Shown here piece by piece: positions 8,407 through 23,180 of a DNA stretch of 64,000 nucleotides. Each line of letters starts with the position of its first letter. Position 1 is the stretch's first letter. The notes beneath the pieces are model-generated. The model was not told where the DNA came from. It saw nothing but the letters and a program-made list of their open reading frames with translations, and did not search any database. The DNA is from Haloplasma contractile SSD-17B (GTDB taxonomy: Bacteria > Bacillota_I > Bacilli_A > Haloplasmatales > Haloplasmataceae): positions 186,001-250,000 of the forward strand of contig NZ_AFNU02000004.1 in NCBI RefSeq assembly GCF_000215935.2. Reading direction: 5' to 3'. The translations under genes were made by a program, and so were the position numbers.

Positions 8407-8673
8407 TCAACTTTCAACTTTAAGTAATCTAGAGTTTAATTTAAATATTCTAACCCACTTTATATGATATGGAGATATAAAGAATAAGCTAAACCCAACT
8501 AATGATATGGTTAATCCAATTGATATAGAACCTATTAATTTATTTCTTTCAGGGTAAATATTAACATCATGTACCATATATAGCGATCGAGAAAGTTCAT
8601 TCTCTTTTTGAATAGATTTAAATCTATTTTCACTATAACTCAGGATTTTACCTTTAATAATTAAACATAACAA
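8407..8673 (-). CDS. doubtful small membrane protein
   Basis: An 88-codon frame with one clear hydrophobic helix (SISIGLTISLVGFSLFFIS, about residues 48-66). It opens with TTG inside the terminator hairpin and has no convincing ribosome-binding site. The first ATG with useful length is at about codon 33. No family was recognised. It lies just outside the left end of the integrated element, downstream of the original rlmH terminator, and could be a gene remnant. Confidence 0.25.
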   Translation of the reverse strand: MLCLIIKGKILSYSENRFKSIQKENELSRSLYMVHDVNIYPERNKLIGSISIGLTISLVGFSLFFISPYHIKWVRIFKLNSRLLKVES

Positions 8674-8708
8674 AAAGCTATTCCGACTATTAATGGAATA
8701 GCTTTTTG
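8672..8708 (-). terminator. probable native rlmH terminator, displaced from its gene
   Basis: AAAAAGCTATTCC and GGAATAGCTTTTT form a 13-bp perfect stem around a short loop, with T-runs on both strands. It begins 7 bases beyond the TAA that ends the left copy of the rlmH terminal codons. That is where an rlmH terminator would lie if the element were absent. Confidence 0.7.
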
Positions 8709-8717
8709 TTATACGTT

Positions 8718-8734
8718 ATTTGTGATACGGTTCA
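8718..8734 (-). repeat. left attachment site (duplicate of the rlmH 3' end)
   Basis: Seventeen bases, ATTTGTGATACGGTTCA, identical to 19325-19341 inside rlmH. Read on the minus strand it encodes Glu-Pro-Tyr-His-Lys followed by TAA (8716-8718), the last residues of RlmH. No other rlmH sequence stands here, so this is an attachment-site copy and not a gene duplicate. Confidence 0.85.
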
Positions 8735-8791
8735 CTGTAACGCACTTTAGGTATAAAATTAATCTAATTATTGGTATTTACCAATAATCAC

Positions 8792-9499
8792 TTATTCGTA
8801 TTGATGATTATTTTTTATTTTATTAGCTTTTTTCCTAACATGACCATCTTTATCATTTAGTAAATCTCTAATAATATAAATAACAGATTCATCCCAATAA
8901 ATATCTATCAACTCTAAAGCCCATTCCCTGTGTCTGGCTAATTTACCTTTTGATAATATTTCAACAGCCTGCTTCCAATTATTTTCACATGCTCTTTGTC
9001 GTATAAACCAAGCCGCAACATCTTTTACTTGATTTGATTGATCATAAGAATATATATGTATTACTAACTGAAAATCATCTACTGATCCTACCTCGCAAAG
9101 ACATTCTACAGCTTCTTTCCTTACTTCTTCAATTAATGATTTTGTTAATTCTATAACTTTATTATATGCTTCTTTAATGCAATGAACTTTAATAGTTCTA
9201 AGAGTTGTAATAACTACATACTTTGATGTATCATCAAGTAGTTTAATTAACTCATTCTTTAACGAATATGCCATTTTATGATAGCTTAGTGCCTCAATTG
9301 CTAACCTTCTTTTACACCAATCTTTATCTAGTAAAACCTCTGATAATAGTTTTAAAGACTTTTCATCACCTTTATATCCTAGAGCAATACAAGCTACATT
9401 AAAATAGGCCATTTCCATATCCAACATTTTTTCTAATTCTAATATACTTTTATCACATGGGATTTTCACTCCATTAATAGATTCTGTCCTTTGATTCAT
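8792..9499 (-). CDS. HEAT-repeat protein, element cargo
   Basis: A 235-residue, all-helical protein made of HEAT-like repeats, for example LLDDTSKYVVITTLRTIKVH, LIEEVRKEAVECLCEVGS and LLNDKDGHVRKKANKI. No catalytic motif, signal peptide or membrane helix is seen. HEAT proteins are scaffolds for protein or nucleic acid partners. It follows the 251-residue gene by 44 bases in the same direction, which suggests an operon and possibly a functional pair. Function unknown. Confidence 0.75.
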   Translation of the reverse strand: MNQRTESINGVKIPCDKSILELEKMLDMEMAYFNVACIALGYKGDEKSLKLLSEVLLDKDWCKRRLAIEALSYHKMAYSLKNELIKLLDDTSKYVVITTLRTIKVHCIKEAYNKVIELTKSLIEEVRKEAVECLCEVGSVDDFQLVIHIYSYDQSNQVKDVAAWFIRQRACENNWKQAVEILSKGKLARHREWALELIDIYWDESVIYIIRDLLNDKDGHVRKKANKIKNNHQYE

Positions 9500-9543
9500 T
9501 TGTTAACCCCCTGTTTTTTTAAAATCAACTTATCCTAATAACA

Positions 9544-10299
9544 TTATTTAATTGTTCTATAGCTTAAACCTTCTGAAAAGTTATATTTTCCATTCATAAT
9601 ATCGTCTTTAGTTTGTTCATCAACTTTTATTCTTCTAGCAAAAAAATCTGATAACCATTTTATAGGTTCACTTACTTCACCTGTATATAAATCTATATCC
9701 TCTTCATGAAAATGGTTATGTACTCCATAATCATAGTAACCATTATCGCATATATAGCCAACATTATAGTAATTACTAAATGGCTTTATTTCCTTACTAG
9801 GACAAGCTGTTATGATATAAAGTTTCTTATTCTCTTTATTTTTATTATCTTTAACGATATCACCAATTTTAAATTTAGTGCCTGCATTTGCATTCAAATC
9901 ATCTGGCCTTATATCATAACTGCAATTATCATCAACATAGATATTTCTACTCAATAAATCACCTTGTAAGTTAAAATCCCAAACTATTTTAAAAGGATTT
10001 GATACTATACTTTCTTCATCTAAAGAAGTATAGTTATCATTAACATTAGGGTCTATCTCCTCTACTTCAAAAATAAAAGAAATACAATCTAATGTAAATT
10101 CTTTAAGTGAACACACATCTCTAAACTCATAGTTATTGTATAGATTTTTAATTTGATCTTGTAATGTTGTTTTTCCAGTACTTATAGCTAACTCTAAACT
10201 TGAAAATACCTCTGCTTTATATTCATATGGATCACACTTTGCATTAAAATTGTCATTAGTTTTATTAAATGCTACTGCTCGTAATAAAAATACTTTCAT
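9544..10299 (-). CDS. uncharacterised 251-residue protein, element cargo
   Basis: Not recognised. It is a soluble, acidic protein with no signal peptide or membrane helix. It starts MKVFLLRAVAFNKTNDNFNA. A middle part reads GTKFKIGDIVKDNKNKENKKLYIITACPS, which looks like a small beta-barrel (KOW/SH3-like) segment, followed by an aromatic stretch YICDNGYYDYGVHNHFHEEDIDLYTG. The C-terminus is helical. A Shine-Dalgarno (AAAGGAGGGCAA) supports the start. It is first in a two-gene unit with the HEAT protein and is divergent from the small RNA unit. Its function cannot be inferred. Confidence 0.75.
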   Translation of the reverse strand: MKVFLLRAVAFNKTNDNFNAKCDPYEYKAEVFSSLELAISTGKTTLQDQIKNLYNNYEFRDVCSLKEFTLDCISFIFEVEEIDPNVNDNYTSLDEESIVSNPFKIVWDFNLQGDLLSRNIYVDDNCSYDIRPDDLNANAGTKFKIGDIVKDNKNKENKKLYIITACPSKEIKPFSNYYNVGYICDNGYYDYGVHNHFHEEDIDLYTGEVSEPIKWLSDFFARRIKVDEQTKDDIMNGKYNFSEGLSYRTIK

Positions 10300-10379
10300 T
10301 TATTGCCCTCCTTTAGGTTATTTATTACATCATCTCTATAAATTATTGGTTTTATTATTTTAGAATATCAAAAATATAA

Positions 10380-10408
10380 TTGCATACAAACTTAATAAAT
10401 ATTATAAT
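10380..10408 (+). promoter_or_regulatory. promoter of the structured small RNA
   Basis: TTGCAT (10380-10385) and a perfect TATAAT (10403-10408) are separated by exactly 17 bases. Transcription would begin about 6-7 bases later, at the first bases of the closing helix of the RNA. Confidence 0.65.
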
Positions 10409-10412
10409 ATAT

Positions 10413-10593
10413 TTGTGTAGTGCTAATATATCCTGTGCTTTCGCAGGTATACTCATAAAGTAAGCGATTTGTCGCTTGCGGGAGGAGCAACAACATAATT
10501 GTAGCTTGAAAATATTCAAGTCCACTAAATATGTATAGCACTACACAACCATATTTACTGATAATGCTGGTCGAATTTCGATCCAGCTTTTTT
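10413..10593 (+). ncRNA. candidate structured small RNA (~180 nt), family not recognised
   Basis: The 5' end TTGTGTAGTGCTA (10413-10425) is the perfect complement of 10536-10548, giving a 13-bp closing helix. Inside are three hairpins: CCTGTG/CGCAGG with a 4-base loop (10432-10447), AAGCGA/TCGCTT with a TTTG loop (10462-10477), and CTTGAA/TTCAAG with an AATA loop (10505-10520). A single-stranded purine-rich stretch GCGGGAGGAGCAAC follows the second hairpin. A rho-independent terminator (10566-10593) ends the unit and a near-consensus promoter begins it. No open frame of note lies inside. It does not show the hallmarks I know of 6S, SRP, tmRNA, RNase P or T-box RNAs. No reverse transcriptase is adjacent, so a retron is unlikely. 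Confidence 0.75.
10566..10593 (+). terminator. terminator of the small RNA unit
   Basis: GCTGG/CCAGC outer stem with an inner TCGA/TCGA stem and one bulged base, followed by six T (10588-10593). Confidence 0.85.
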
Positions 10594-10609
10594 ATTTAAG
10601 TTACAAATT

Positions 10610-10861
10610 TTAGGTTTGACTTATAAGAAAAATTGTTCCAGTACAACCAATTATATTAAAGATTATCCATGCAATTTCTCCAATATCATTTTGTATAATA
10701 AACCATATCAATGATGTTGGTATTGAAAATAACGATTTAGTTGCATGAATTAAATTATACTCAATAGTACCCACATCTAAACCTAGCAACAATAGCGAGC
10801 ATATATAAGGAACTAAATTAATAATAAAAAACATTAATGCTATTCCTAATAATTTTCTCAT
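10610..10861 (-). CDS. small membrane protein, element cargo
   Basis: An 83-residue hydrophobic protein with two or three membrane helices: LLGIALMFFIINLVPYICSLL near the N-terminus, SLFSIPTSLIWFII in the middle and IAWIIFNIIGCTGTIFLI at the C-terminus. No family was recognised. It converges on the small RNA unit: its stop codon lies 16 bases from the RNA terminator, and no T-run follows on its own strand, so its transcript probably runs antisense over the RNA. A Shine-Dalgarno (GGGGTGAAAG) precedes the ATG. Confidence 0.55.
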   Translation of the reverse strand: MRKLLGIALMFFIINLVPYICSLLLLGLDVGTIEYNLIHATKSLFSIPTSLIWFIIQNDIGEIAWIIFNIIGCTGTIFLISQT

Positions 10862-11150
10862 ATTCTTTCACCCCGAGTTTTATCCTTCATATCATATAAA
10901 CCTAATATTTATAAAATATACCAAACATATATATAAATTATAGCATAAAATACTAACTTATGAGATATAAATTCCCTATTATTATTCATTTTAACTTCCT
11001 TTAATGACTAATCTATAGTGGTTAAGATTTTATATATTTATGATTAATTTTACTTATCACATATTATATTTTATATTTATATTCAACCTATGGTTGAGTC
11101 ATGGTAACTTAACTTGTTATTGATTCATCCGTTACTTTAGCATAAAATAT

Positions 11151-11170
11151 AATTGTAACCGGTTATAATT
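11151..11170. promoter_or_regulatory. palindromic operator upstream of the XRE-TPR regulator
   Basis: AATTGTAACCGGTTATAATT is a 20-bp palindrome with one mismatched pair, centred on CCGG. It overlaps a TATAAT (11164-11169) and ends 18 bases before the start codon. The position fits an autoregulatory operator for the HTH protein encoded downstream. Confidence 0.6.
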
Positions 11171-11187
11171 TAATTAAGGGGATAACA

Positions 11188-12270
11188 ATGAATATAGGAT
11201 TAAAGATTAAGAGTTTAAGAAGAGAACAAAATGTGACTCAAGAAAAACTGGCTGATTATTTACACATTTCTTATCAAGCTGTTAGCAAATGGGAAAATGA
11301 AACCGCATCTCCGGATATATCTCTAATTGTTCCATTGGCTAATTTTTTTGGTGTGACTACCGATTATTTACTTGATAACACTTCTAACGAAAATTATGCT
11401 GAAATTGAAGCAATCAACGATAAGATTGCATCCCTTCGTAATATCGGCAAGACTACAGAAGCAATAAAGTTGTTAAGTGATAGTCTACTGATCTATCCAA
11501 AGGAGTTTCGGTTTATGTACCTTCTCGCAAATATGTTATCTGGATACCATTCCACACCAGAGCAGGAGAAGCTTGCCAAACTAGAAAAATATGATGAACA
11601 AGCTGTTAAGCTTTGCGAGAAAATTCTAGAGGACTGCAGCGATGAGGAAATCCGAAATAGTGCAAAGATACTTTTATGTTACCAGTATCCAAAAGTCGGT
11701 AAAAGAGACAAAGCAATCGAATTAGCTAAGAAGATGCCTTCATTATATGCGACAGGATCATTGTTATTAGCATCGATTTATGATGGTGAAGAAAAAATTA
11801 AACAGAGACAAGAAAATCTCAAAGATTATCTCACACAGTCTGCGCTTGAACTATTATGGTCAATTTCCAATCAAAATTTGGGTAATGAGCTTAGCAATGA
11901 GGAAAAAATAGTGTATTTAAAAGACGCAATCACAATTATGAACACCTTATTTTATGATGGAAATTTCTTATTTGAACATATCCGCATGTTTGAAATATAT
12001 ATTCGTCTATCCCGGCTCATGGCTGAAACTGATAACTTACCTGAATGCTTAGAATGTCTAAAAAGTGCCAAATTCCATGCCTTACTTTATGATCAACTAC
12101 CAGAGGGTGATATACCTTACACTTCTCGTTACATTAACCGCTTGTCATTTAACCGAAAATCAATCTTAACAAACAGTGAAAACAGCGCAATTACTAATTT
12201 TAAAGAAACCCTAAAAAATAAATGTTTCGATAAATATAGGGATAATGTAGAATTTCTCGATTTATTATAG
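11188..12270 (+). CDS. XRE-family HTH regulator with TPR-like C-terminal domain
   Basis: A 360-residue protein. Residues ~7-62 form a Cro/C1-type helix-turn-helix (IKSLRREQNVTQEKLADYLH, then SYQAVSKWENE), followed by FFGVTTDYLLD. The remaining ~290 residues are helical with TPR-like repeats, the layout of peptide- or protein-sensing regulators (Rgg/PlcR-like) and of standalone XRE-TPR regulators. It is the only long plus-strand gene in the element. Its codon use is slightly less AT-rich than its neighbours', which hints at a separate origin. A palindrome in its promoter region suggests self-regulation. RBS AAGGGGATAAC. Confidence 0.88.
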   Translation: MNIGLKIKSLRREQNVTQEKLADYLHISYQAVSKWENETASPDISLIVPLANFFGVTTDYLLDNTSNENYAEIEAINDKIASLRNIGKTTEAIKLLSDSLLIYPKEFRFMYLLANMLSGYHSTPEQEKLAKLEKYDEQAVKLCEKILEDCSDEEIRNSAKILLCYQYPKVGKRDKAIELAKKMPSLYATGSLLLASIYDGEEKIKQRQENLKDYLTQSALELLWSISNQNLGNELSNEEKIVYLKDAITIMNTLFYDGNFLFEHIRMFEIYIRLSRLMAETDNLPECLECLKSAKFHALLYDQLPEGDIPYTSRYINRLSFNRKSILTNSENSAITNFKETLKNKCFDKYRDNVEFLDLL

Positions 12271-12278
12271 TAAGACAA

Positions 12279-12310
12279 AAGACAAGGAAAAATATATTTA
12301 TCCTTGTCTT
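12279..12310 (+). terminator. terminator-like hairpin after the XRE-TPR gene
   Basis: AAGACAAGGA pairs with TCCTTGTCTT across a 12-base AT-rich loop. The following T-tract is weak (GTTTAC). Confidence 0.5.
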
Positions 12311-12341
12311 GTTTACATTATTTTTTTAAATTAATTCTATA

Positions 12342-13027
12342 CTAAAAATCTTGATTTACTAACCTATATAGAGGTTCAATTTCCTCATTCCATTTTTCTG
12401 TACGTTTTATTTTTTTATTCTTATATACTTTATCAAAATCTAATTTATCTAGATTTTCTAGGATAAACTCTTCTGTAATCTCTTGATACTGAGATATATA
12501 TTTCCATTTTACTTTATTTTTATATTCTAATATAAAATCTTGCGATACTACTTGGTATCTTGAAATATTACTCCAACTAATTTGATTTATATGTTTTCTA
12601 ATAAAATTTTCTGATAATTTTTGATATTGACAGATTAATCGCCAATTTACATCACCTGAATATTTATCAATTATTTCTTCTGTTAACTTTTGATATCTAG
12701 AAATTGTCTTCCAATCAACTTTTTTTGCATTTTGATCTAAAAACTATTAGTTAATTTTTGATATTGACAAATATTAATCCAGTTAACATCGCTAGAATAC
12801 TTTGTAATCATACCTTCTGTTAATTTTTGTGATCTAGAAACTATTTCCCAATCAAGTTCTTCACAATACTCATCGATAAAATCATCTGACAACTCATAGT
12901 ATTCTAATATGTTTTGCCATCTCTCCCACGTAATATAACCGTAAACCATATCTTCTTTATCTAATATTTCATTTAATTCTTCTGACTCAACAAGGTCAAT
13001 TGAATCATCGTAATAGTCATCTAACAT
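12342..13027 (-). pseudogene. tandem-repeat protein with WxxI.(R/Q)YQ(K)L repeats, frameshifted
   Basis: The N-terminal part (96 codons from 13027) is acidic and then enters repeats of about 24-25 residues with the pattern Trp-x2-Ile-x-(Arg/Gln)-Tyr-Gln-x-(Leu/Val/Ile)-(Thr/Ser)-x2-(Phe/Ile)-Ile. At 12737 the frame ends in TAG, but the repeats resume at once in the -1 frame and run to a TAG at 12342, adding about 130 residues. The junction is a run of five T directly before AG. One more T would join the frames into a protein of ~228 residues. It is either broken, an indel error, or needs a -1 slip. I know similar repeats only from uncharacterised bacterial and giant-virus proteins. Confidence 0.7.
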
Positions 13028-13152
13028 AATTCTATCTCTCCTTAAAATAATTATTTATAATCAATATCGTTATAAGTATAGCATAATTTAGCAAAACGAC
13101 TTATGAAATTTCACAAGTCTTTTGCTATTTTTAGTATTATTTTATCTTGCTT

Positions 13153-14751
13153 CTAAGATTTTTTATATTCAAAAGTTTCACCTTGTGGAAAACTCGGATT
13201 TATTGATCTGTACAATATATCATCAAACTTTAAATCTATTTTCATATCTGCTTTAGATTTATCTATTATTTCAATTTTATCAACAATTAATCCTACAAGT
13301 TCTTTTACCTTTAATCGCTTATTTTCATTTTTAGTATTGAAGAGTATAGAAATATTTTTTAGAAAGGATTTTACATCATCAATTGTTATATCTAATTCTT
13401 CTCGATGTTTGATTTTAGTTTCAATATTTAATTCTTCGATACTTTGCTTATATTGATTAATCTCAGCAGCAATTGTCGCTAAATCTTCTTCAAGTTCTTT
13501 ATCAGTTATTAATTCTTTAATACTCAACTGTCTTAATTTTTGTTTTTTCTTCTCTAGTTCGTCTATTCTAATTTCAAGCCTTCTTAATTGTCCCTTATCT
13601 GAGTCCATATTTATCGTGTTATTTTTTATATATTCATATAAATTTTGAGTCAGTTCTTCTGAATTGAGGTCTTTAGCAATCTTCTTAAATGCTATTTTAT
13701 CGATTAAATCGACTCTAACACCATTTGAATGGCATGCAGTAACACCTTTATTATGAAATTGAGAACATGTATAGTAAAGATGTTCAATTCGCTTTCCTTC
13801 TTTATTCTTTCTTACTGACTTCGTTCCTACTACTTTAGAACCACATTCTGGACAACATAAAACTCCTGCTAAAATATACTTTCCAACAGGAGCTAATTTT
13901 CGCCTAGGATTATTTTTCATTTGTTCTTGCACTTTATCCCAGTCTTCTTTTGCAATAATTGCTTCATGCTCGCCTTCAACAAATATAGGATCTTCTGTTC
14001 TCCCTTTTCTTCTTTTAATATTCCAATCTTTATACTTTCCGTATTGAATGTATCCTGCATACAGTGGGTTAGACAATATAGTTTTAATTGTGTTAATTGC
14101 GAACAAGCTGTTTTTCTTAGTACGATAACCGTTCTTATTTAATCTATTTGCGATTGCTTTATAACCATGTCCACCTAAATACAAATTATAAATTTGTTGT
14201 ATTATCTGTTTCTCTTCTTCATTAACGACAATCTTTGTTTTTCGGCCACTATAATCACGATCATACCCCATAATAGGTCCAGAACCATAAATTTTTCCTT
14301 CTCTTGCTCTTCTTTCTGCACCTGTTCGTGTTTGTTCAATAATAAGGTTTCTTTCCATCTCTGCAAATATGCCCAAGAACTTTGCCATTGCTTCACCCAT
14401 TTGAAGAGATGTATCAATACCATCACCAATTGATTTAAACGTAACATTATTCTTCTTAAATTCATGTAATATGTTCTCAAGGTCTCGTGAATTTCTTGCT
14501 AATCTCGATATTTTTGTGACATATACTGCTTCTAAAATTCCTGCATCAACATCTTCTAACAATCTCTTTAGTTCCATACGGTCATCCGTGTTCTTACCTG
14601 ATATTCCACCATCTTTATATATAATATAATCTTTCTTTTCATAATTTGCTAAACCTATTAGTTTATCCTTTTGAGCTTCTAGTGAAAATCCTTCTTCTAC
14701 TTGTTTATCTGAACTTACTCGAATATATAATCCTATTTTCTTACTTTTCAT
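13153..14751 (-). CDS. large serine recombinase of the element (Ccr-like integrase/excisionase)
   Basis: A 532-residue large serine recombinase. The N-terminal resolvase domain (~1-150) has the nucleophile in IGLYIRVSSDKQ, then VEEGFSLEAQK, ISGKNTDDRMELKRLL and the catalytic-region ISRLARNSRDL. A recombinase domain follows (GYDRDYSGRKTKIVVNEEEKQII onward). The zinc ribbon is LCCPECGSKVVGTK with a second Cys pair at YTCSQ and ACHSNG, then a coiled coil (~380-450) and a C-terminal tail. It should catalyse integration and excision at the 17-bp rlmH sites. I chose the ATG at 14751 because AAAGGAG lies 9 bases upstream. The frame extends further upstream, but that part overlaps a small leader gene. 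Confidence 0.93.
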   Translation of the reverse strand: MKSKKIGLYIRVSSDKQVEEGFSLEAQKDKLIGLANYEKKDYIIYKDGGISGKNTDDRMELKRLLEDVDAGILEAVYVTKISRLARNSRDLENILHEFKKNNVTFKSIGDGIDTSLQMGEAMAKFLGIFAEMERNLIIEQTRTGAERRAREGKIYGSGPIMGYDRDYSGRKTKIVVNEEEKQIIQQIYNLYLGGHGYKAIANRLNKNGYRTKKNSLFAINTIKTILSNPLYAGYIQYGKYKDWNIKRRKGRTEDPIFVEGEHEAIIAKEDWDKVQEQMKNNPRRKLAPVGKYILAGVLCCPECGSKVVGTKSVRKNKEGKRIEHLYYTCSQFHNKGVTACHSNGVRVDLIDKIAFKKIAKDLNSEELTQNLYEYIKNNTINMDSDKGQLRRLEIRIDELEKKKQKLRQLSIKELITDKELEEDLATIAAEINQYKQSIEELNIETKIKHREELDITIDDVKSFLKNISILFNTKNENKRLKVKELVGLIVDKIEIIDKSKADMKIDLKFDDILYRSINPSFPQGETFEYKKS

Positions 14752-14845
14752 TGTTCTCTTCTCCTTTATTATCTTCATTAATTGACTCCAATAACAATTC
14801 ATATAATAACTCTAAAATTTTATTATCCTTATTTTTATTTACCAT
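14741..14845 (-). CDS. 34-residue leader protein overlapping the recombinase start
   Basis: A short frame starting ATG at 14845 behind TAGGTG (6-base spacing) and ending in TAA at 14741, 11 bases inside the recombinase gene. The product is small, acidic and helical (ILELLYELLLESINED). The overlap suggests translational coupling: the ribosome-binding site of the recombinase lies inside this frame. No known family. Confidence 0.5.
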   Translation of the reverse strand: MVNKNKDNKILELLYELLLESINEDNKGEENNEK

Positions 14846-14859
14846 TAGTTACACCTACC

Positions 14860-14891
14860 ATCATTAATTCGATAAATTTATCGTTAATGAT
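14860..14891. promoter_or_regulatory. palindrome upstream of the recombinase unit
   Basis: CGATAAATTTATCG (14870-14883) is a perfect 14-bp palindrome, extended by ATCATTAA and TTAATGAT arms with a 2-base bulge on one side. It lies 15-45 bases upstream of the leader gene and is a plausible operator controlling recombinase expression. Confidence 0.5.
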
Positions 14892-14946
14892 TTGTTAGTA
14901 GAATTTTATTAAAATAAAATCCTATCAACAATAAGTGCTCCAATAT

Positions 14947-14978
14947 AAAAAAAGAACCTAGATTTATTATCTAAGTTC
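14947..14978 (-). terminator. terminator after the accessory block
   Basis: On the minus strand GAACTTAGAT pairs with ATCTAGGTTC (one G-T pair) followed by seven T. It separates the accessory genes from the recombinase unit. Confidence 0.75.
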
Positions 14979-15042
14979 CTAGTTATTGAGCTATCGTAAA
15001 TGTGTAATATCAAATTAGAAATAAATAATTTATAATTTAACC

Positions 15043-15417
15043 CTATTTAATGAAGATCCTGCCGTATTTAAGCAAAGAATCCTCTCTGTAAGACCGTTTG
15101 GATGTTTTATATCCTAACGACATAAATATAAATTTTATAAAGCTACCTAAACATCTTTTATCATAAATACTGAGTTCCATATTTTTTATCTCATTACTAT
15201 AATATTCTATAAATGTATGAAGTGGCGCAATATTTAAATCTTGATTGAATATCATTAACTTTATTAATATATCATCTTGAATGGACCTTTTTACAAGATT
15301 CCATAATTCAGATCTATAATAATATTGTCCTAATACTGGTGATCTAGAACTTTCAATATTAAGACATACAATATCTTCTAGTAAATCCTTATCATAAACT
15401 ATTTTATTAAAATTCAT
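15043..15417 (-). CDS. uncharacterised element protein, paralogue of 18568-18975
   Basis: About 124 residues from the ATG at 15417, which has AGGAG at suitable spacing. The C-terminal two thirds resemble the protein at 18568-18975: (E)LWNLVKRSIQDDILIKLMIF matches LLNLWIEFLNDDDKVKMLFW, then LNIAPLHTFIEYYSNE matches LSIAPTHFFSKLYENE, and DKRCLGSFIKFIFM matches ERRCVGYLCSFLMQ, with a similar ending. No catalytic motif or known domain. Two diverged copies flank the accessory block, which suggests a duplication followed by specialisation. Confidence 0.65.
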   Translation of the reverse strand: MNFNKIVYDKDLLEDIVCLNIESSRSPVLGQYYYRSELWNLVKRSIQDDILIKLMIFNQDLNIAPLHTFIEYYSNEIKNMELSIYDKRCLGSFIKFIFMSLGYKTSKRSYREDSLLKYGRIFIK

Positions 15418-15567
15418 ATTCATTTCTCCTATTTTGATTATAATAAAAGCACACAAAATATACAGTATGCTTTGTTATAATAATCAAATCTTATTATATG
15501 ATTATATATAATTGAGTTGACTCTTTATATGTTATCAAAGTGATTATTCCACTTTGTTGTTTAATTA

Positions 15568-15828
15568 TTAATGTCTTATTAAGTATTTACCATTATTTAA
15601 TTCACTTATTTTTGAACTACTATTATTTTTGATATCCATGTACTCTGTTGTTGTTAATTCGGAGAATATTGAACATATTCCTATTACATCTAGTATTTCT
15701 ATTGTATTTATTTTTTTATTTAGTAATATATATATTTCCTTAAGAGCTTCATCACTAAATTGATTTTCTCTTGAGTATCTATGAAACTCATTCTTAAATT
15801 CATCATACTTCAATCTCTTAACAATCAT
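15568..15828 (-). CDS. small uncharacterised element protein (86 aa)
   Basis: Soluble, helical, no known domain. Its C-terminus (KISELNNGKYLIRH) resembles the end of the 148-residue protein at 16180-16626 (ETNQRVLVRHILNN), so the two may be distant relatives. A ribosome-binding site (AAAGGTATGATAGGG) precedes the ATG. Confidence 0.5.
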   Translation of the reverse strand: MIVKRLKYDEFKNEFHRYSRENQFSDEALKEIYILLNKKINTIEILDVIGICSIFSELTTTEYMDIKNNSSSKISELNNGKYLIRH

Positions 15829-15879
15829 TCCCTATCATACCTTTCATATGATTATTTTATAGTCTTAGTAAGTTTAAAT

Positions 15880-16125
15880 GGCGGGGGCCTAAGACCACCA
15901 ACGCCCCGCCTTCGTTGTTCGAGCATTTCTCAGCTCTATGAATTTATTTATTAGTATAAATAAAGTGGTCTTTAGTGTTAGTGTTAGGAAAGTCCCATCA
16001 ATTTGATAACCTATAGAGGGTAAGTTTCCTATCCTCGTATTACCTCACTGACTCAATTATCATTATTTATAATTGATCACTTAACATCCGCTGAACTGGA
16101 AGCAACTTCTCGCACCAGAACTTAT
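15880..16125 (-). ncRNA. structured, locally GC-rich intergenic segment with a possible pseudoknot
   Basis: In a strongly AT-rich region, GGCGGGG (15880-15886) pairs with CCCCGCC (15904-15910). The loop of that hairpin holds CTAAGACCAC (15889-15898), complementary to GTGGTCTTTAG (15965-15975) with one bulge, which would form a pseudoknot. Further pairs: TAGGAAA (15985-15991) with TTTCCTA (16025-16031), CCC with GGG inside it, a GAGC/GCTC hairpin, and CTGG...GAAG/CTTC...CCAG (16095-16117). No open frame of note. Same-strand neighbours suggest a minus-strand RNA, but I see no clear promoter. A DNA-level site such as a transfer origin is the alternative. Confidence 0.5.
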
Positions 16126-16179
16126 TTAATTATTTGTTGTTAACATTTTATTTTATTAAACTATATCCATCTAACTGAA

Positions 16180-16626
16180 TCAGTTATTGAGAATATGTCT
16201 TACTAGAACACGTTGATTTGTTTCTGTCGTAAAGGCTACGCTATCATTATCAATTGTTGCTATATTAATTTTTTTATTTAACATATCTAAGTTTGTATAT
16301 TCATTGTATAATACAATATTGATTAACCTAATAAATCCATTGTGCCCTAATTCATCATATAAATAACAGTAATACAAATGGTCATATGATATATTAGTTT
16401 CAGCTATTAACCATACTGCAAACTTAACATAATCTCTAAACTCATATACATCATGTTGTAAATCTTGAATAGGTTGAATACTATTAAAGATTGTTTCATC
16501 ATAGCCCATTTCAGCAACAATGTTAAACACTTCATCCATTCGAGTTATTATTTCAGGACTAAATACATATTTATTTTGAATCGCTTGTAACTCTTTGGTG
16601 TAAATGTTCTGTAACATTTTAATCAT
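16180..16626 (-). CDS. uncharacterised element protein (148 aa)
   Basis: A mostly helical soluble protein beginning MIKMLQNIYTKELQAIQNKY. No domain recognised. It follows ssb by 36 bases in the same orientation, so it belongs to the accessory operon. An ATG nine bases in (MLQNIY) is a possible alternative start. Confidence 0.65.
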   Translation of the reverse strand: MIKMLQNIYTKELQAIQNKYVFSPEIITRMDEVFNIVAEMGYDETIFNSIQPIQDLQHDVYEFRDYVKFAVWLIAETNISYDHLYYCYLYDELGHNGFIRLINIVLYNEYTNLDMLNKKINIATIDNDSVAFTTETNQRVLVRHILNN

Positions 16627-16662
16627 AATTTACCTCGCTTCCTAACCAATAGTAAGTAGGAA

Positions 16663-17001
16663 CTACCAAGTTTCTGATTGTTTACTTGCAGAAATAAAGG
16701 TTATTTTCTCTCCTAGTATTTCAGGAACATAGATAATCCCTTCATCTGTTTCTTTCGTTACCGAACAAATTCTCGCTTTAACCCCCACTGTTACACCTGC
16801 TTTTAAATGATCATATGCTGTTGAAGTAATCCCCTCTGATAAATCAACAGTCACAAAATCACTATCATACTGCATTGTATCAGGATTTTTAAAACCTCTT
16901 TTGATTTCTAATGTTAACCTTGTTTTCATTTTATTATTATCTAACACTTCCTTAACTGGATTGCCTATTATTTTTCCAACAAGTATTGTTTGGTTTAACA
17001 T
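16663..17001 (-). CDS. ssb: single-stranded DNA-binding protein (short, element-borne)
   Basis: A 112-residue OB-fold SSB. The start LNQTILVGKIIGNPVKEV corresponds to the (x)NxVxLVGRL.xDPE opening of bacterial SSBs, followed by KTRLTLEIKRGF and the aromatic/beta segment FVTVDLSEG. It lacks the long acidic C-terminal tail that chromosomal SSBs use to recruit partners, which is common for plasmid- and element-borne copies. It would bind single-stranded DNA exposed during transfer, replication or repair of the element. It abuts the upstream basic protein without a gap. Confidence 0.85.
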   Translation of the reverse strand: MLNQTILVGKIIGNPVKEVLDNNKMKTRLTLEIKRGFKNPDTMQYDSDFVTVDLSEGITSTAYDHLKAGVTVGVKARICSVTKETDEGIIYVPEILGEKITFISASKQSETW

Positions 17002-17292
17002 CTACTTCTTCCTCCTTTTATCGTAATAGTTATGGTTATTGGTTCTTTGATTTATGTTATCAAAGTTATATGTGAAATTATCATTATTAAAGTCAACCAC
17101 ATTGACGCTCTCCGTAACAATGACAACCTTATCTCTACTATACGTTTCAGTTCTTCTTGTCGCATTCGTCAGATTATTTTGATATCCCTTTTGATATCGT
17201 CCTCTATTCGTTGCAGCGACAGGTCTTGCAATACTGTTATCAGAACGGTGATTACTGTATCTCTTTGTAGGATAATACTTTTGATTAGCCAA
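17002..17292 (-). CDS. small basic, Asn/Arg-rich protein (96 aa)
   Basis: Rich in Asn, Arg, Tyr and Lys, of low complexity and likely disordered (NRGRYQKGYQNNLTNATRRT; NINQRTNNHNYYDKRRKK at the C-terminus). The composition suggests nucleic acid binding. It is directly adjacent to ssb (stop next to start) and preceded by AGGAGGTGAAAAG. No known family. Confidence 0.6.
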   Translation of the reverse strand: MANQKYYPTKRYSNHRSDNSIARPVAATNRGRYQKGYQNNLTNATRRTETYSRDKVVIVTESVNVVDFNNDNFTYNFDNINQRTNNHNYYDKRRKK

Positions 17293-17355
17293 CTTTTCAC
17301 CTCCTACTTATAATTCAAGATTTATTCTAATTTCCCATTTATTATATTTATACGA

Positions 17356-17832
17356 TTAACTAAGATACTTTTCTTCTCTCATACTTAAATACTTCACATC
17401 TAATTCATCGTATTGGTTACCTATGATGATGTGATCGAGAAGCTCTATACCAATTACTTCACCAACTTCACTAAGTCTTTTAGTAACACTTATATCTTGT
17501 TGACTTGGCCGAACATCTCCACTTGGATGATTATGGGCTACTATAATGCTTGCAGAAGATGATAACAATGCAAAGTTAAACACTTCTCTCGGATGTACAA
17601 CTGATTTATTAAGTGAACCAACAAAGGCTGTTTTGACTGCGATTATTTTGTTCTTAGTATCTAAGCAAATAACAATCAAGTGTTCCTGCATCTCACCTTG
17701 TAGATCGAATAACTCGTAAATCAACTTTGCGATTTTATCTGGTGCTGTCACTTGAAAATCATCGTCAACTTTATAATTCATACCATTTTCTTTTACTAAC
17801 ACCATTTTGGTTTTATAATAATTAATACGCAT
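17356..17832 (-). CDS. radC: RadC-type JAB/MPN domain protein (short form)
   Basis: A 158-residue protein containing the complete JAMM metal motif HNHPSGDVRPSQQD (His-x-His-x7-Ser-x2-Asp) and the preceding segments IIAVKTAFVGSLNKSVVHPREVF. It lacks the N-terminal helix-hairpin-helix domain of chromosomal RadC, which is the usual form on mobile elements. The family is often linked to DNA processing or anti-restriction, but its enzymatic activity is not firmly established. Its start codon abuts the stop of the upstream 94-residue gene, so both are co-translated. Confidence 0.88.
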   Translation of the reverse strand: MRINYYKTKMVLVKENGMNYKVDDDFQVTAPDKIAKLIYELFDLQGEMQEHLIVICLDTKNKIIAVKTAFVGSLNKSVVHPREVFNFALLSSSASIIVAHNHPSGDVRPSQQDISVTKRLSEVGEVIGIELLDHIIIGNQYDELDVKYLSMREEKYLS

Positions 17833-18117
17833 TTAATACCACTCTCCTACTCCATGGTAATCAGAAAACAATGTCTCATAATTAAAATCATCTATACTAA
17901 CACCATCTTCAATTAGGTCAGTTATGTATTCTCTAGCACTTTGTGCGACTCCAATTAGCGTTGCATAATCTTTTTTCATATAAACGGAGATACTTAAATT
18001 AATAACACGTAAGATGTTCTCGTCATTTATGTTAGTTAACAAATCTTCTAATTCTCGATAGATGATACTTTTAGATAAAAGTTCGTGTTGTGATAATTGT
18101 TTTATAACAGTTAACAT
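17833..18117 (-). CDS. uncharacterised element protein (94 aa)
   Basis: A helical, acidic soluble protein (MLTVIKQLSQHELLSKSIIYRE...) with no recognised domain. It is placed directly before radC with no gap and belongs to the accessory operon. Confidence 0.6.
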   Translation of the reverse strand: MLTVIKQLSQHELLSKSIIYRELEDLLTNINDENILRVINLSISVYMKKDYATLIGVAQSAREYITDLIEDGVSIDDFNYETLFSDYHGVGEWY

Positions 18118-18187
18118 TCTCTATCACCTACCACAATATTACTTCTTTATTACTAACAAGATCTTTAACAACTTGAATTTCATTAAT

Positions 18188-18505
18188 CTATGAATCTGCG
18201 TCTTTTATGCTGATACCTAACGTTTCGCCTTCCTCATCACATGGCCCCATAATTAACACATTACCGTATAGATACTGATTGGTATCATTAAGTAACATTG
18301 TTAGTTGTGGTTCTGCTTTTAATAGTCCTTCATCATCAATATAGATTGATTTGTCTCTATAACTAACAATGTCAATTAGGTTTACACCTAGATGTTTATA
18401 GATTTGATGCAATTCTGACATATTACTGTTCTTATTAATTTCAACAACACTGATAGCTAATGATTGTTGGTCTTCTGTTCTTTTTATTAAAATTCCTTTT
18501 TTCAT
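18188..18505 (-). CDS. DUF3846-like protein
   Basis: A 105-residue protein with the arrangement I associate with DUF3846: a central IVSYRDKSIYIDDEGLL segment followed by YGNVLIMGPCDEEGETLGIS. DUF3846 proteins are small and frequent on phages, plasmids and conjugative elements, with no known function. A strong ribosome-binding site (TTGGAAGGAGATTAAG) precedes the ATG. Confidence 0.65.
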   Translation of the reverse strand: MKKGILIKRTEDQQSLAISVVEINKNSNMSELHQIYKHLGVNLIDIVSYRDKSIYIDDEGLLKAEPQLTMLLNDTNQYLYGNVLIMGPCDEEGETLGISIKDADS

Positions 18506-18567
18506 CTTAATCTCCTTCCAAAATAAAAAGCCTATCTTTACGATAGACTAAAATAATCTTTACGATT

Positions 18568-18975
18568 TTAAACAAATACTTGTCCATGTTTGATTTTAAA
18601 TACAGAATTAGCAACTCTTACACCCTTAATAAATTTCTTATCCTTTTCCTGTAGCAGTCGACATTGCATTAAGAAGCTACAAAGATAACCGACACATCTT
18701 CTCTCAAATACAATTGCAGTTGCTAACTCATTTTCGTATAGTTTACTAAAGAAATGTGTTGGAGCGATACTTAATTCATCGTTATTCCAAAACAGCATCT
18801 TCACTTTATCATCATCATTCAAGAACTCAATCCATAGATTTAACAGCCAATGATGATCACCTTTATCTTGTTTATCATACAAACATTTGCTTGGACTATT
18901 TGATTTTAAATACATACTCCAAAAGTTATCTCTTAACAGGTCCATATCATAACGATACTTATTAAATAAATTCAT
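18568..18975 (-). CDS. uncharacterised element protein, paralogue of 15043-15417
   Basis: About 135 residues from the ATG at 18975, placed 9 bases after AAAGGAGG. The extended frame would start with TTG at 18984. Shared blocks with the second copy are LLNLWIEFLNDDDKVKMLFW, LSIAPTHFFSKLYENE, ERRCVGYLCSFLMQ and the ending FKIKHGQVFV. No domain recognised. It is the first gene of the accessory operon, next to the rlmH end of the element. Confidence 0.65.
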   Translation of the reverse strand: MNLFNKYRYDMDLLRDNFWSMYLKSNSPSKCLYDKQDKGDHHWLLNLWIEFLNDDDKVKMLFWNNDELSIAPTHFFSKLYENELATAIVFERRCVGYLCSFLMQCRLLQEKDKKFIKGVRVANSVFKIKHGQVFV

Positions 18976-19085
18976 ATCTTTCAACCTCCTTTAATCTTCT
19001 CCTGTTAACATTTTTATAATATGTATTTAAAACATCTGCAAAATCGGATTTAAATCTTAATTATACATTGTCGTGTTAATGAAAC

Positions 19086-19099
19086 ATGTTTTAAAACAT
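19086..19099. promoter_or_regulatory. 14-bp palindrome upstream of the accessory operon
   Basis: ATGTTTTAAAACAT, about 110 bases upstream of the first accessory gene. It is a plausible operator. No protein can be assigned. Confidence 0.35.
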
Positions 19100-19198
19100 T
19101 TCTAATAAGGTTTCAGTAGTCATGTTATAAATATACACCTTGACTCAAAGAACAGTTAGAATACATTGCAAATCGCTTTAAATAATGTAAATACACAA

Positions 19199-19229
19199 AA
19201 AGGAGAAGTGAATATAATCACCTCTCCTT
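19199..19229 (-). terminator. terminator inside the element, downstream of rlmH
   Basis: On the minus strand AAGGAGAGGTGA pairs with TCACTTCTCCTT around a short loop, followed by TTTTTG. It ends the rlmH transcript about 95 bases after the rlmH stop and shields the element's genes from read-through. Confidence 0.75.
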
Positions 19230-19322
19230 GTATTATTATATTTTTCTAAACGACTATTTTTACGGTATTTGATTACAAAATATTTAAAAATTGAAATACA
19301 AATAATTACGCTTTGTTTTAGG

Positions 19323-19802
19323 TCATTTGTGATACGGTTCATTATTATTTATTTTAATAGCTCTGTAGATTTGTTCTAATAAGATTAAACGCATTACCTG
19401 ATGGGGGAATGTCATTTTAGAAAAAGATAAGAGTTCATCTGAACGTTTATAGACTTTTTCACTTAAGCCTAGAGATCCCCCTATAATGAAAGTTATTTTA
19501 GACTTACCATATGTCAACAAGTTATTTAAGTCCATAGCTAGTCTTTCACTACTTTTTTGTTTTCCTTCAATCGCAAGTGAGATTACATATTCGTCCCTTT
19601 TTATATGATTAAGAATTTTTTCTCCCTCTGCATCTTTGACTATTCCCATTTCCTTGTCACTTAACTTCTCAGGTGCTTTTTCATCTTGTAATTCTATAAT
19701 GTTAAACTTACCATAAGGTGTTAATCGTTTCAGATATTCATTTATTCCTTGTTTAAGATATTTTTCTTTGAGTTTGCCTACTGTAATTAATTTAACCTTC
19801 AA
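19323..19802 (-). CDS. rlmH: 23S rRNA (pseudouridine1915-N3)-methyltransferase RlmH
   Basis: A SPOUT-family methyltransferase. Visible are the start [19 protein letters not shown], the SAM-binding knot segment [24 protein letters not shown] in shorter parts ([20 protein letters not shown]), and the ending [14 protein letters not shown]. It methylates pseudouridine 1915 in helix 69 of 23S rRNA. I choose the TTG at 19802: it lies 4 bases after AGGTGA and gives 159 residues, the length of the Bacillus and Staphylococcus proteins. Its last codons are the integration site of the element, which restores the coding end and replaces the original TAA by TGA. Confidence 0.95.
19325..19341 (-). repeat. 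right attachment site inside the rlmH 3' end
   Basis: ATTTGTGATACGGTTCA, identical to 8718-8734. It encodes the last residues of RlmH (Glu-Pro-Tyr-His-Lys) and the first base of the TGA stop. Confidence 0.85.
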
Positions 19803-19959
19803 AATCATCACCTGATTTCACTATATAACGTGATAGTTGATCGCACAATTCACATCTATGACTCTGCTCTGTTTCTTCTACAATAGGTAGTTTATTTAAA
19901 TCCAGTACTTTTTCAATTCCTATATCTGTATGTTCTTCACACACAAAAACCTTATACAT
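19792..19959 (-). CDS. CxxH/CxxC zinc-ribbon-like small protein
   Basis: A 55-residue protein beginning [20 protein letters not shown] and containing CEEH and CELC pairs, a presumptive zinc site. It matches the small CxxH/CxxC protein family found beside rlmH in Bacillus. Its 3' end overlaps the rlmH start by 11 bases, so the two are likely translationally coupled. Function unknown. Confidence 0.75.
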
Positions 19960-20907: not shown

Positions 20908-22185
20908 TTAAACAATATATTCTTTCCCGCCCATATATGGTTTTAGGACTTCAGGGATTTTAATTGAACCATCTTCTTGTTGATAATTTTCAATGATTGC
21001 AGCAACTGTTCTACCTACTGCTAAACCTGAACCATTTAATGTATGTACATACTCGGGTTTACTTTTTTCTCCCCTTCTAAATTTAATATTAGCTCTTCTT
21101 GCTTGGTAATCTTCGAAATTACTACATGAAGAGATTTCTTTATATTCTCCATAAGAAGGTAACCATACTTCAATATCATATGTTTTTGCTGAAGTGAACC
21201 CTAAATCACCTGTACAGAGTTCAATAACACGATATGGTAATTCAAGTCTCTTTAGTATTGTTTCAGCATGACCTGTTAATTTTTCTAAATCGTTATATGA
21301 GTCTTCTGGTTTTGTAAACTTTACAAGTTCAACTTTATTAAATTGATGTTGACGTATAATTCCTCTAGTATCTCTTCCTGCTGACCCTGCCTCTGCTCTA
21401 AAACATGGCGAATAGGCTGTATAGTTTATTGGCAATTGATCTATTGATAATATTTCATCACGATGTAAATTAGTTATTGGTACTTCTGCAGTAGGACATA
21501 AGAAGTAATTATGATTGTTTTCTAGTTTAAAAGCATCATCCTCAAACTTAGGTAACTGTCCAGTACCAGTCATGCTATCTCTATTTACAATAGCAGGAGG
21601 TAAGACTTCAGTATAATCATGTTTTTCTGTATGGGTGTCTAACATAAAAGAAATCAATGACCTTTCTAATCTTGCACCCAATTTTTTATAAACAGCAAAC
21701 CTTGATCCAGTTATTTTACCAGCGCGCTCAAAGTCAATAATGTCAAGTTCAGTTACCAAGTCCCAGTGCGGTTTTGCTTTAAAGTCGAATTCAGTAGGTT
21801 TACCATACTCTCTTATAACAACATTGTCATCTTCTGATGTTCCACGTGGAACATTGTCATATGGTGTATTAGGAATGTGTAGAAGTAAATCTTGTATTTT
21901 TAAGTCATATTCTTTTAATTTTTCATCTAAATCTTTAATTTTATCATTAGATGTGTTCACTTTTTCCAGAATTGGTTTTACATCTTTGCCTTCTCTTTTA
22001 TATTGACCAATCATTTTTGAAGTGTTATTTCGATCAGCTTTCAGCTTTTCTACCTCTATTATTACTTCTCTACGCTTTTCATCAAGTTCAATAATCTGAT
22101 CTAACTCAGAAAACTCGCCACCTCTGGTTTGTAAAAGTTCTTTAACTGATTTAAAGTGTTCTCTAATTTGTTTTAAGTCAAGCAT
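20908..22185 (-). CDS. serS: seryl-tRNA synthetase
   Basis: A 425-residue class II aminoacyl-tRNA synthetase. N-terminal coiled-coil arm (~30-100), then motif 2 ([25 protein letters not shown] in pieces: [23 protein letters not shown]) and motif 3 ([20 protein letters not shown]). It charges tRNA-Ser. The ATG at 22185 sits 8 bases after GGAGG, so longer frames are not used. It is preceded by a T-box leader. Codons for VPRGT contain a full parS site (21838-21853). Confidence 0.97.
21838..21853. promoter_or_regulatory. parS site (ParB/Spo0J-binding centromere site) within serS
   Basis: TGTTCCACGTGGAACA fits the parS consensus TGTTNCACGTGNAACA and is a perfect 16-bp palindrome (18 bp with flanking A/T). 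It lies inside the coding sequence of serS. The cognate ParA and ParB are encoded at 57.7-59.3 kb. Confidence 0.9.
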
Positions 22186-23152: not shown

Positions 23153-23164
23153 TATAAAACAAAA

Positions 23165-23180
23165 TGTTCCACGTGGAACA
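23165..23180. promoter_or_regulatory. parS site upstream of pdxT
   Basis: TGTTCCACGTGGAACA, identical to the copy in serS 1.3 kb away. It lies 12 bases upstream of the pdxT -35 element, at the edge of the gene desert. Confidence 0.92.

Follow-up and report, generated by a model that had tools for sequence, protein, structure and literature searches.

What has come to lie at the 3' end of rlmH in Haloplasma contractile SSD-17B, a member of the Bacillota far from the staphylococci, and how is it related to the cassette chromosomes that use the same site? The question is raised by a 64,000-nt stretch of this genome (3.4 Mb in 34 contigs; NZ_AFNU02000004.1, positions 186,001 to 250,000), hereafter the window, in whose numbering the positions in this genome are given. 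In it, two 17-bp copies of the end of rlmH in direct orientation (ATTTGTGATACGGTTCA) enclose 10.6 kb with a gene for a large serine recombinase (LSR), and an earlier, sequence-only reading took this segment for an element resembling the staphylococcal cassette chromosome (SCC). The evidence presented below indicates that it is very probably an integrated mobile element of the cassette-chromosome type, inserted at rlmH and carrying a single LSR that resembles the Ccr recombinases.

The boundaries are sharply defined (Table 1). Of the 17-mer the window has exactly two copies, one at 8718-8734 and one at 19325-19341, precisely where the sequence-only reading had placed them; none appears across 100 dinucleotide shuffles, and about 1e-5 extra copies are expected from composition. 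A model of attachment (att) sites, R1, built on sequence only from 35 aligned att-like sites of other genomes, none of them from the window, ranks 8716-8762 first (E 1.1e-6) and 19323-19366 second (E 2.5e-5) when the window is scanned with filters off. The third-ranked match has an E of 0.26, and a further site of the same kind is thus not evident. In the integrated state RlmH ends in EPYHK-TGA, and read through the distal core copy it would end in EPYHK-TAA. A stem at 8667-8712 starts 3 bases after this TAA and a shorter one (8672-8708) 7 bases after it, the latter being the spacing given in the sequence-only reading; the fold of 8668-8716 (-21.5 kcal/mol, z -8.6, with 0 of 200 shuffles equally good) agrees with the proposal that the native rlmH terminator lies here. 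On the other side, an element-borne hairpin at 19229-19200 stands about 93 nt past the new rlmH stop, in a stretch (19185-19240) that folds at -20.5 kcal/mol (z -5.8). Terminator-like sites are generally frequent between 8400 and 20000, with nine against 2.0 (sd 1.3) in shuffles. Since a stop codon and a terminator-like hairpin are present on both sides, and since both flanks resemble element ends of other genomes, it is very improbable that the rlmH end was merely duplicated, by chance or homologously, with the LSR acting at another site, even though ectopic fragments resembling the rlmH 3' end do exist in relatives.

The LSR possesses the Resolvase, Recombinase and zinc-ribbon domains of its class, and comparison with relatives suggests that its true start lies about 17 codons inside the open reading frame (ORF). 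Against NCBIfam models it scores 330 bits on CcrB, 304 on CcrC, 135 on XisF and 94 on CcrA, the cut-offs being 900 for CcrB and CcrC and 700 for CcrA. As controls, S. aureus CcrB reaches 1136 bits on CcrB and 271 on CcrC, S. aureus CcrA reaches 822, and four phage-type LSRs (phi105, Javan11, phiKSM96 and a Vagococcus plasmid LSR) reach 144-193 on CcrB; the host's remaining LSR matches, all on different contigs, do not exceed 189 bits on CcrB. Among 18 LSRs compared by BLASTP, the best match outside the enzyme's own five-member clade is S. aureus CcrB (293-295 bits, 34% identity), the others giving at most 179 bits; conversely, the best match of CcrB besides CcrB itself is the window LSR (293 bits), with at most 226 bits outside the LSR clade. 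By score and by reciprocal best match the enzyme is therefore nearer to CcrB and CcrC than to any other LSR compared outside its clade, phage LSRs included, and the claim that site and enzyme class are those of SCC holds. As its scores fall far under the cut-offs and the deep nodes of its tree are weak, it is named Ccr-like only, and is not filed as CcrA, CcrB or CcrC.

Relatives of the LSR with 58-60% identity are encoded in Candidatus Izimaplasma HR2 (G248 in our set of genomes), which belongs to the same class as the host, in Tenericutes MAG22 (G111) and in G051. Single-protein searches of genome contigs and viral contigs gave no relative, and an alignment used as query gave three named loci. 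At E ≤ 1e-80 the group is present in 5 of 395 genomes of the class, host included. Upstream of the LSR, all three share genes for a single-strand DNA-binding protein (SSB), RadC, orf96b and orf137 with the window, in the order orf96b-SSB-orf137-RadC-LSR with further genes interspersed; the window order is DUF3846, orf94, RadC, orf96b, SSB, orf148, orf86, orf137, LSR, and a DUF3846 gene is also present in the G111 element. Their cargo differs: the G111 element (82599-103397, about 20.8 kb) has type I restriction, whereas in that of G051 (about 37 kb, 1164355 to about 1201460) a CsoR-like repressor accompanies metal P-type ATPases. The rlmH genes of G111 and G051 are located elsewhere in their genomes, and none was found in G248.

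The element ends are shared as well. The end TGACCTAAAA, exact or with 1-2 changes, follows an rlmH-like core elsewhere than rlmH in G051, G111, G248, G097 and G283. It stands directly at rlmH in G006 and G303, such R1-type ends at rlmH itself thus being found without an LSR of this group; in G006, none lies within the 20 kb read. With up to 3 mismatches, the R1-end pattern was met in 15 of 395 genomes and the reversed control in 5 of 395; the matches in G077, G201, G380 and G004 look like chance, with no rlmH-like or R1 continuation, and were set aside. Separately, G006 displays at C1:2319815 a degenerate left-end/right-end junction, as if a former cassette junction. The final 45-60 bp of rlmH, including the att core, are also repeated at ectopic positions distant from the gene itself in G018 (C1:1212014 and 1588058), G051 (C1:1164355) and G029 (C1:404393); the G018 1588058 and G051 1164355 sites are 69.5% identical over 1.4 kb on their rlmH-like side.

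How does this element compare with known cassette chromosomes? With SCC it shares the rlmH 3'-end target, direct repeats of the rlmH terminal codons, an LSR of the CcrB/CcrC kind and a JAB/RadC gene; the last is 41% identical over 81 aa (E 6e-25) to a JAB protein of S. aureus SCC in a single comparison, was seen in one SCC locus and is not a formal criterion. The core reads TATCACAA in the window versus TATCATAA in SCC, a motif in which the C of TATC is reportedly essential (PMC6222049). All 15 element ORFs were scanned against Pfam, nine proteins also against NCBIfam and ten against PADLOC. In contrast to SCC, there is a single LSR under all Ccr cut-offs; DUF927/cch, SAUGI, DUF960 and DUF1643, all annotated in the SCC loci examined, have no Pfam match in the 15 ORFs; and CcrA has none among the element proteins (Pfam for 15 ORFs, NCBIfam for nine). 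No resistance gene was recognised in the element either. The sequence-only reading had noted that the ccr-linked helicase and resistance cargo are lacking, which stands, although the RadC relative of SCC, the SSB and the DUF3846 genes have to be added to its gene set. Recent transfer of a true staphylococcal SCC would account for the identical site and enzyme class, and is next to impossible: 34% identity to CcrB lies under the 50.9-92.3% range of Ccr allotypes (PMC10581047), DUF927, DUF1643 and CcrA are unmatched in these scans, DUF960 has no pairwise match, and megablast of the locus against 72,556 plasmid records gave no near DNA match, even if SCC is mostly chromosomal.

Genes called ccrAB(Ent) are reportedly found outside the staphylococci, and an SCC-like element at rlmH beyond that genus is a kind already known. 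The Enterococcus element ECC uses CcrAB at rlmH, its att sites of about 50 bp contain TATCATAA, and many ECCs carry the DUF927/DUF960 genes of SCC (PMC6222049). What was earlier proposed as an SCC-like insertion outside the staphylococci is thus correct for this element but not new in itself; it shares the site with ECC, and differs in having one LSR instead of a CcrA and CcrB pair, and another gene module. The CI ccrDE islands likewise have a divergent Ccr lineage, but with insertion at rimL, two recombinases and an SCC-type module of cch2, SAUGI, DUF960 and DUF1643 (PMC10581047). A further CcrB-like gene, broken into 3 pieces and 51.6% identical to S. aureus CcrB over 45%, follows rlmH in Listeria monocytogenes NCTC7974 (L103:12170-12792; a 'plasmid 5' record, apparently chromosomal), as does a type I restriction system.

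These features are consistent with the following mechanism. A circular form of the element would carry attP (Lb-core-R1, where Lb is the rlmH-distal element end and R1 the proximal one), which one LSR would recombine directionally with attB, made of the last rlmH codons and the DNA downstream. Integration would leave the last residues of RlmH unchanged, replace the stop TAA by TGA and supply the new terminator, while excision would join rlmH-TAA again to the native terminator. Genes of the SSB/RadC type are common in plasmid leading regions, and the module of RadC, SSB, orf96b, orf137 and DUF3846 probably handles a single-stranded DNA form during entry or replication. As no relaxase was recognised in this module, the element would be mobilised by other elements, acting as helpers. 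The ccrDE genes move an SCC without moving along, in work cited in PMC10581047, and thereby give a precedent for Ccr action in trans.

Several observations weigh against the cassette-chromosome reading. The GC content of the element is only slightly low (28.6 versus 30%); a genome-wide R1 search with stricter filters yields 0 sites in the host genome at E ≤ 1e-4; the LSR group occurs in 1 of 8 genomes of the host's order, a single family in the search set, at E ≤ 1e-60; the G111, G248 and G051 elements have no intact rlmH adjoining; neither the SSB of SCC and that of the window, nor the DUF960 protein of SCC and orf105 (BLASTP), have pairwise similarity; and we infer mobility from sequence alone. 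In the recombinase tree, the window enzyme forms a clade with those of G248, G111 and G051 (support 99/97), which G171 then joins (100/99), but the grouping with CcrB has a support of 54/55, the deeper nodes are weak, and the AU test does not reject an alternative that places it among phage-type LSRs (p-AU 0.157). CcrC is absent from this tree, none scoring above cut-off in 265 genomes of the phylum; one Paenibacillus and one MC-10 row (chosen ORF not a full LSR) and the host's own L002 (doubtful ORF start) were also left out. The separate SCC-like lineage suggested earlier agrees with this clade, which by score is closest to CcrB and CcrC but whose deep placement relative to CcrB and phage LSRs has weak support in the tree. 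The earlier concern that kin of the enzyme might use unrelated sites is answered in part: three relatives with readable ends lie away from an intact rlmH, yet beside the same rlmH-like core.

The weak deep branches, together with the 31-34% identity of phage-type LSRs over much of the enzyme, speak for an integrase of prophage or integrative and conjugative element origin that happens to use rlmH and is unrelated to cassette chromosomes. This origin is nonetheless improbable, given that CcrB is clearly the best and reciprocal match outside the clade, that the RadC of the element is related to the JAB protein of SCC, and that Pfam scans of the 15 element ORFs recognised neither phage structural genes nor conjugation genes. 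A decayed, immobile remnant, which kept ends and LSR but lost movement, deserves more attention in view of the G006 locus, where an R1-like end without LSR adjoins rlmH, and of the indirect case for mobility; it is still unlikely, the LSR ORF being intact with its domains, the cores identical over 17 bp and the module genes open. A cassette-chromosome-type element with its own Ccr-like LSR thus remains our preferred reading.

Half-sites were judged on 75 sites with core similarity. On the left, Lr corresponds to the end of rlmH, original or copied, La is AAGTTGCAACTAAATGCGATACAAC, and Lb, the distal end of LSR elements, is CCCCTAACTGCGATAAACT, in the window version CTAAAGTGCGTTACAGT; on the right, R1 belongs to LSR elements and R2 is TAATTGCAACTAATGATATG, after which a terminator-like repeat can often be made out by eye. 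With crude thresholds, a classifier gave 24 La-R2, 14 Lr-R2, 9 Lr-R1, 4 La-R1, 3 Lb-R2, 3 Lb-R1 and 18 ambiguous sites; one of the three Lb-R1 calls, an R1 label on the native flank at 8681, is a classifier error and was not used. The pattern is as expected if LSR elements (attP = Lb-R1) enter Lr-R2 or La-R2 sites. With serine integrases, sites of one kind are normally not partners, a constraint on any movement of the R2-La cassettes.

Sites of this type also occur in relatives. Searching 36 genomes chosen from three families for GARCCGTATCACAAA with at most 1 mismatch yielded 86 matches, spread over 26 of the genomes, and the reversed pattern yielded 11. At E ≤ 1e-4, R1 finds at least 144 sites in 40 of 386 genomes of the class (21 of these genomes belong to family f12, 11 to f22 and 8 to neither); these counts are lower bounds, 11 candidates having been scored per genome, and were obtained without a reversed control. 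Many array sites scored with R1 had already served in its training, so that their E-values are not independent; the window, G021, G056 and G129 lie outside its training set. Among 18 relatives whose rlmH neighbourhoods were examined, mostly over 20 kb or less, 8 have further att-like sites behind rlmH at E ≤ 1e-6 (G018, G021, G040, G051, G097, G104, G118 and G303) and 10 have none in the stretch (G001, G002, G003, G004, G006, G007, G009, G029, G075 and G111), G111 having one just past it. The 27 further sites are all on the rlmH strand, and the cassettes between them are without a Ccr-like LSR. Most of these small cassettes start with a stop codon, often with a terminator-like repeat (by eye), and end in an att half-site; their content may be a defence system, but also a toxin-antitoxin pair or genes of other kinds.

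The core also marks where shared sequence ends: in comparisons of 1.5 kb downstream among ten genomes (G018, G040, G051, G097, G104, G118, G303, G029, G075 and G111), similarity running through rlmH stops at most 82 nt from the core in 44 of the 45 pairs. The remaining pair reaches 137 nt, and two pairs have a second short match at another att site. In the 8 genomes with further sites, CcrB-family matches at E ≤ 1e-40 are limited to the LSR of G051, which lies elsewhere, and to two LSRs of G104 at a distance; none was found in G018, G040, G097, G118 and G303 at this threshold, nor in G021 at E ≤ 1e-70.

Cargo is diverse. Successive inter-site intervals of G040 hold one defence system each, i.e., PARIS (AriA 127 bits, AriB 72), Thoeris (two ThsB, ThsA 556 bits) and Gabija (GajA 510, GajB 319), with 3 of 10 scanned proteins unmatched. 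G018 cassettes carry a type I restriction system and those of G104 a helicase resembling HamB (143 bits), the 5 other proteins scanned there being unmatched. In G021, the first cassette behind rlmH encodes a protein of 1771 aa that matches the PADLOC candidate PDC-S37 at 1139 bits; beside this protein and an HTH protein, a relative of orf137 (L159:3246-3623, 33% over 114 columns) was also seen. Lipoproteins, an aldo-keto reductase, a P-type ATPase and, by eye, proline-synthesis-like genes (G021) occur in others, so defence is not the cargo of every cassette. G118 cassettes hold a Phd/ParE pair and a nucleotidyltransferase-HepT pair that are 93% identical to those of G097 over 740 and 1018 bp, versus 75% for the chromosome just upstream of rlmH; identity drops just beyond the distal-side att core, and the other end has no evident site.

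Chromosomal integrons are arrays of co-oriented small cassettes, toxin-antitoxin cassettes included, with short recombination sites between them. The rows behind rlmH resemble a serine-recombinase counterpart of these: they share co-oriented small cassettes, short dividing sites and toxin-antitoxin pairs, but their sites are serine-recombinase-like and anchored at a housekeeping gene. A wider reading, tenable though not the one we would favour at present, sees in the window element the autonomous member of such a cassette-array system, a functional counterpart of chromosomal integrons anchored at rlmH but using another recombinase class. In Izimaplasma-like and related bacteria, Ccr-like elements would then act in trans on cassettes lacking a Ccr-like LSR, which are stacked one way behind rlmH and ectopic copies of its 3' end. 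Should cassettes indeed move in trans, integrons would no longer be the only natural gene-cassette platform. These rows are the more novel part, rather than the window element itself: literature searches on cassette arrays, rlmH hotspots and Izimaplasma islands, with subscription papers largely outside them, brought up no paper recognisably about such arrays. The element for its part would extend Ccr-like cassette chromosomes to Bacillota far from the staphylococci, in a one-enzyme, helicase-less design that bears on the origin of SCC. Its conserved ends make att sites detectable by sequence, and this exposes rlmH as a landing site with rows of defence systems in some relatives.

Table 1. Features of the rlmH-associated element and its flanks, in window coordinates, from the rlmH side.
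Feature	Position	Strand	Basis or remark
rlmH, target gene	19323..19811	-	NCBIfam RlmH 250 bits; TGA stop inside right att site
17-bp core, rlmH-proximal copy (rlmH / element)	19325..19341	-	sequence, att model R1, shuffles
R1, rlmH-proximal element end (TGACCTAAAACAAAGCG...)	19288..19324	-	similar in relatives
terminator-like hairpin of element, in place of displaced rlmH terminator	19200..19229	-	12-pair stem, T-run
orf138, paralogue of orf137	18568..18984	-	33% identity over 108 columns, E 3e-12; no Pfam match
orf105, DUF3846	18188..18505	-	Pfam 2e-11; 57% relative in G111
orf94	17833..18117	-	no Pfam match
RadC/JAB protein, core module	17356..17832	-	Pfam 3.6e-41
orf96b, core-module protein	17002..17292	-	52-61% relatives beside SSB in G111, G248, G051; no Pfam match
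SSB, single-strand DNA-binding protein	16663..17001	-	Pfam SSB 4.3e-8
orf148	16180..16626	-	ORF; no Pfam match
orf86	15568..15828	-	ORF; sub-threshold Pfam matches only
orf137, helical core-module protein	15043..15456	-	41-46% relatives in three LSR elements
Ccr-like large serine recombinase (LSR)	13153..14802	-	between 17-bp copies; Pfam, NCBIfam, BLASTP, tree
orf96, end of stretch with 137-nt repeats	12737..13027	-	ORF
HTH (XRE) protein, weak TPR matches C-terminally	11188..12270	+	Pfam HTH_3 6.8e-16
orf83, cargo	10610..10861	-	ORF; no Pfam match
strongly folding single-copy stretch	10400..10545	-	z -4.9; one genome copy; no Rfam family
orf251, cargo	9544..10299	-	no Pfam, NCBIfam or PADLOC match
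HEAT-repeat protein, cargo	8792..9499	-	Pfam HEAT_2 7.8e-16
Lb, rlmH-distal element end (..GTGCGTTACAGT)	8735..8762	-	half-site alignment, att model R1
rlmH-distal copy of 17-bp core (element / native downstream side of rlmH)	8718..8734	-	TAA restored
native rlmH terminator-like hairpin, displaced by insertion	8667..8712	-	stem search, folding

Beyond the shared module, the window element carries further genes (Table 1). Among the ten proteins scanned, PADLOC matched the XRE protein in its HTH part and gave weak HEAT, 2TM and JAB matches; this cargo is thus not established as defence. The AlphaFold model of orf137 has a pLDDT of 75, and no PDB match at E ≤ 0.001. Rfam gave two matches, both far under gathering scores. 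The stretch at 10400-10545, bounded by inverted repeats inside the element, could possibly be a small RNA or a transfer origin; a dispersed repeat was considered and rejected, as it is single-copy in the genome. A tandem 137-nt repeat of 70% identity was also noted at 12603-12876.

Beyond the element, rlmH lies near the replication origin in staphylococci. Two identical parS-like palindromes, ATGTTCCACGTGGAACAT, are present at 21837-21854 and 23164-23181 and suggest that the window, too, is near the origin.

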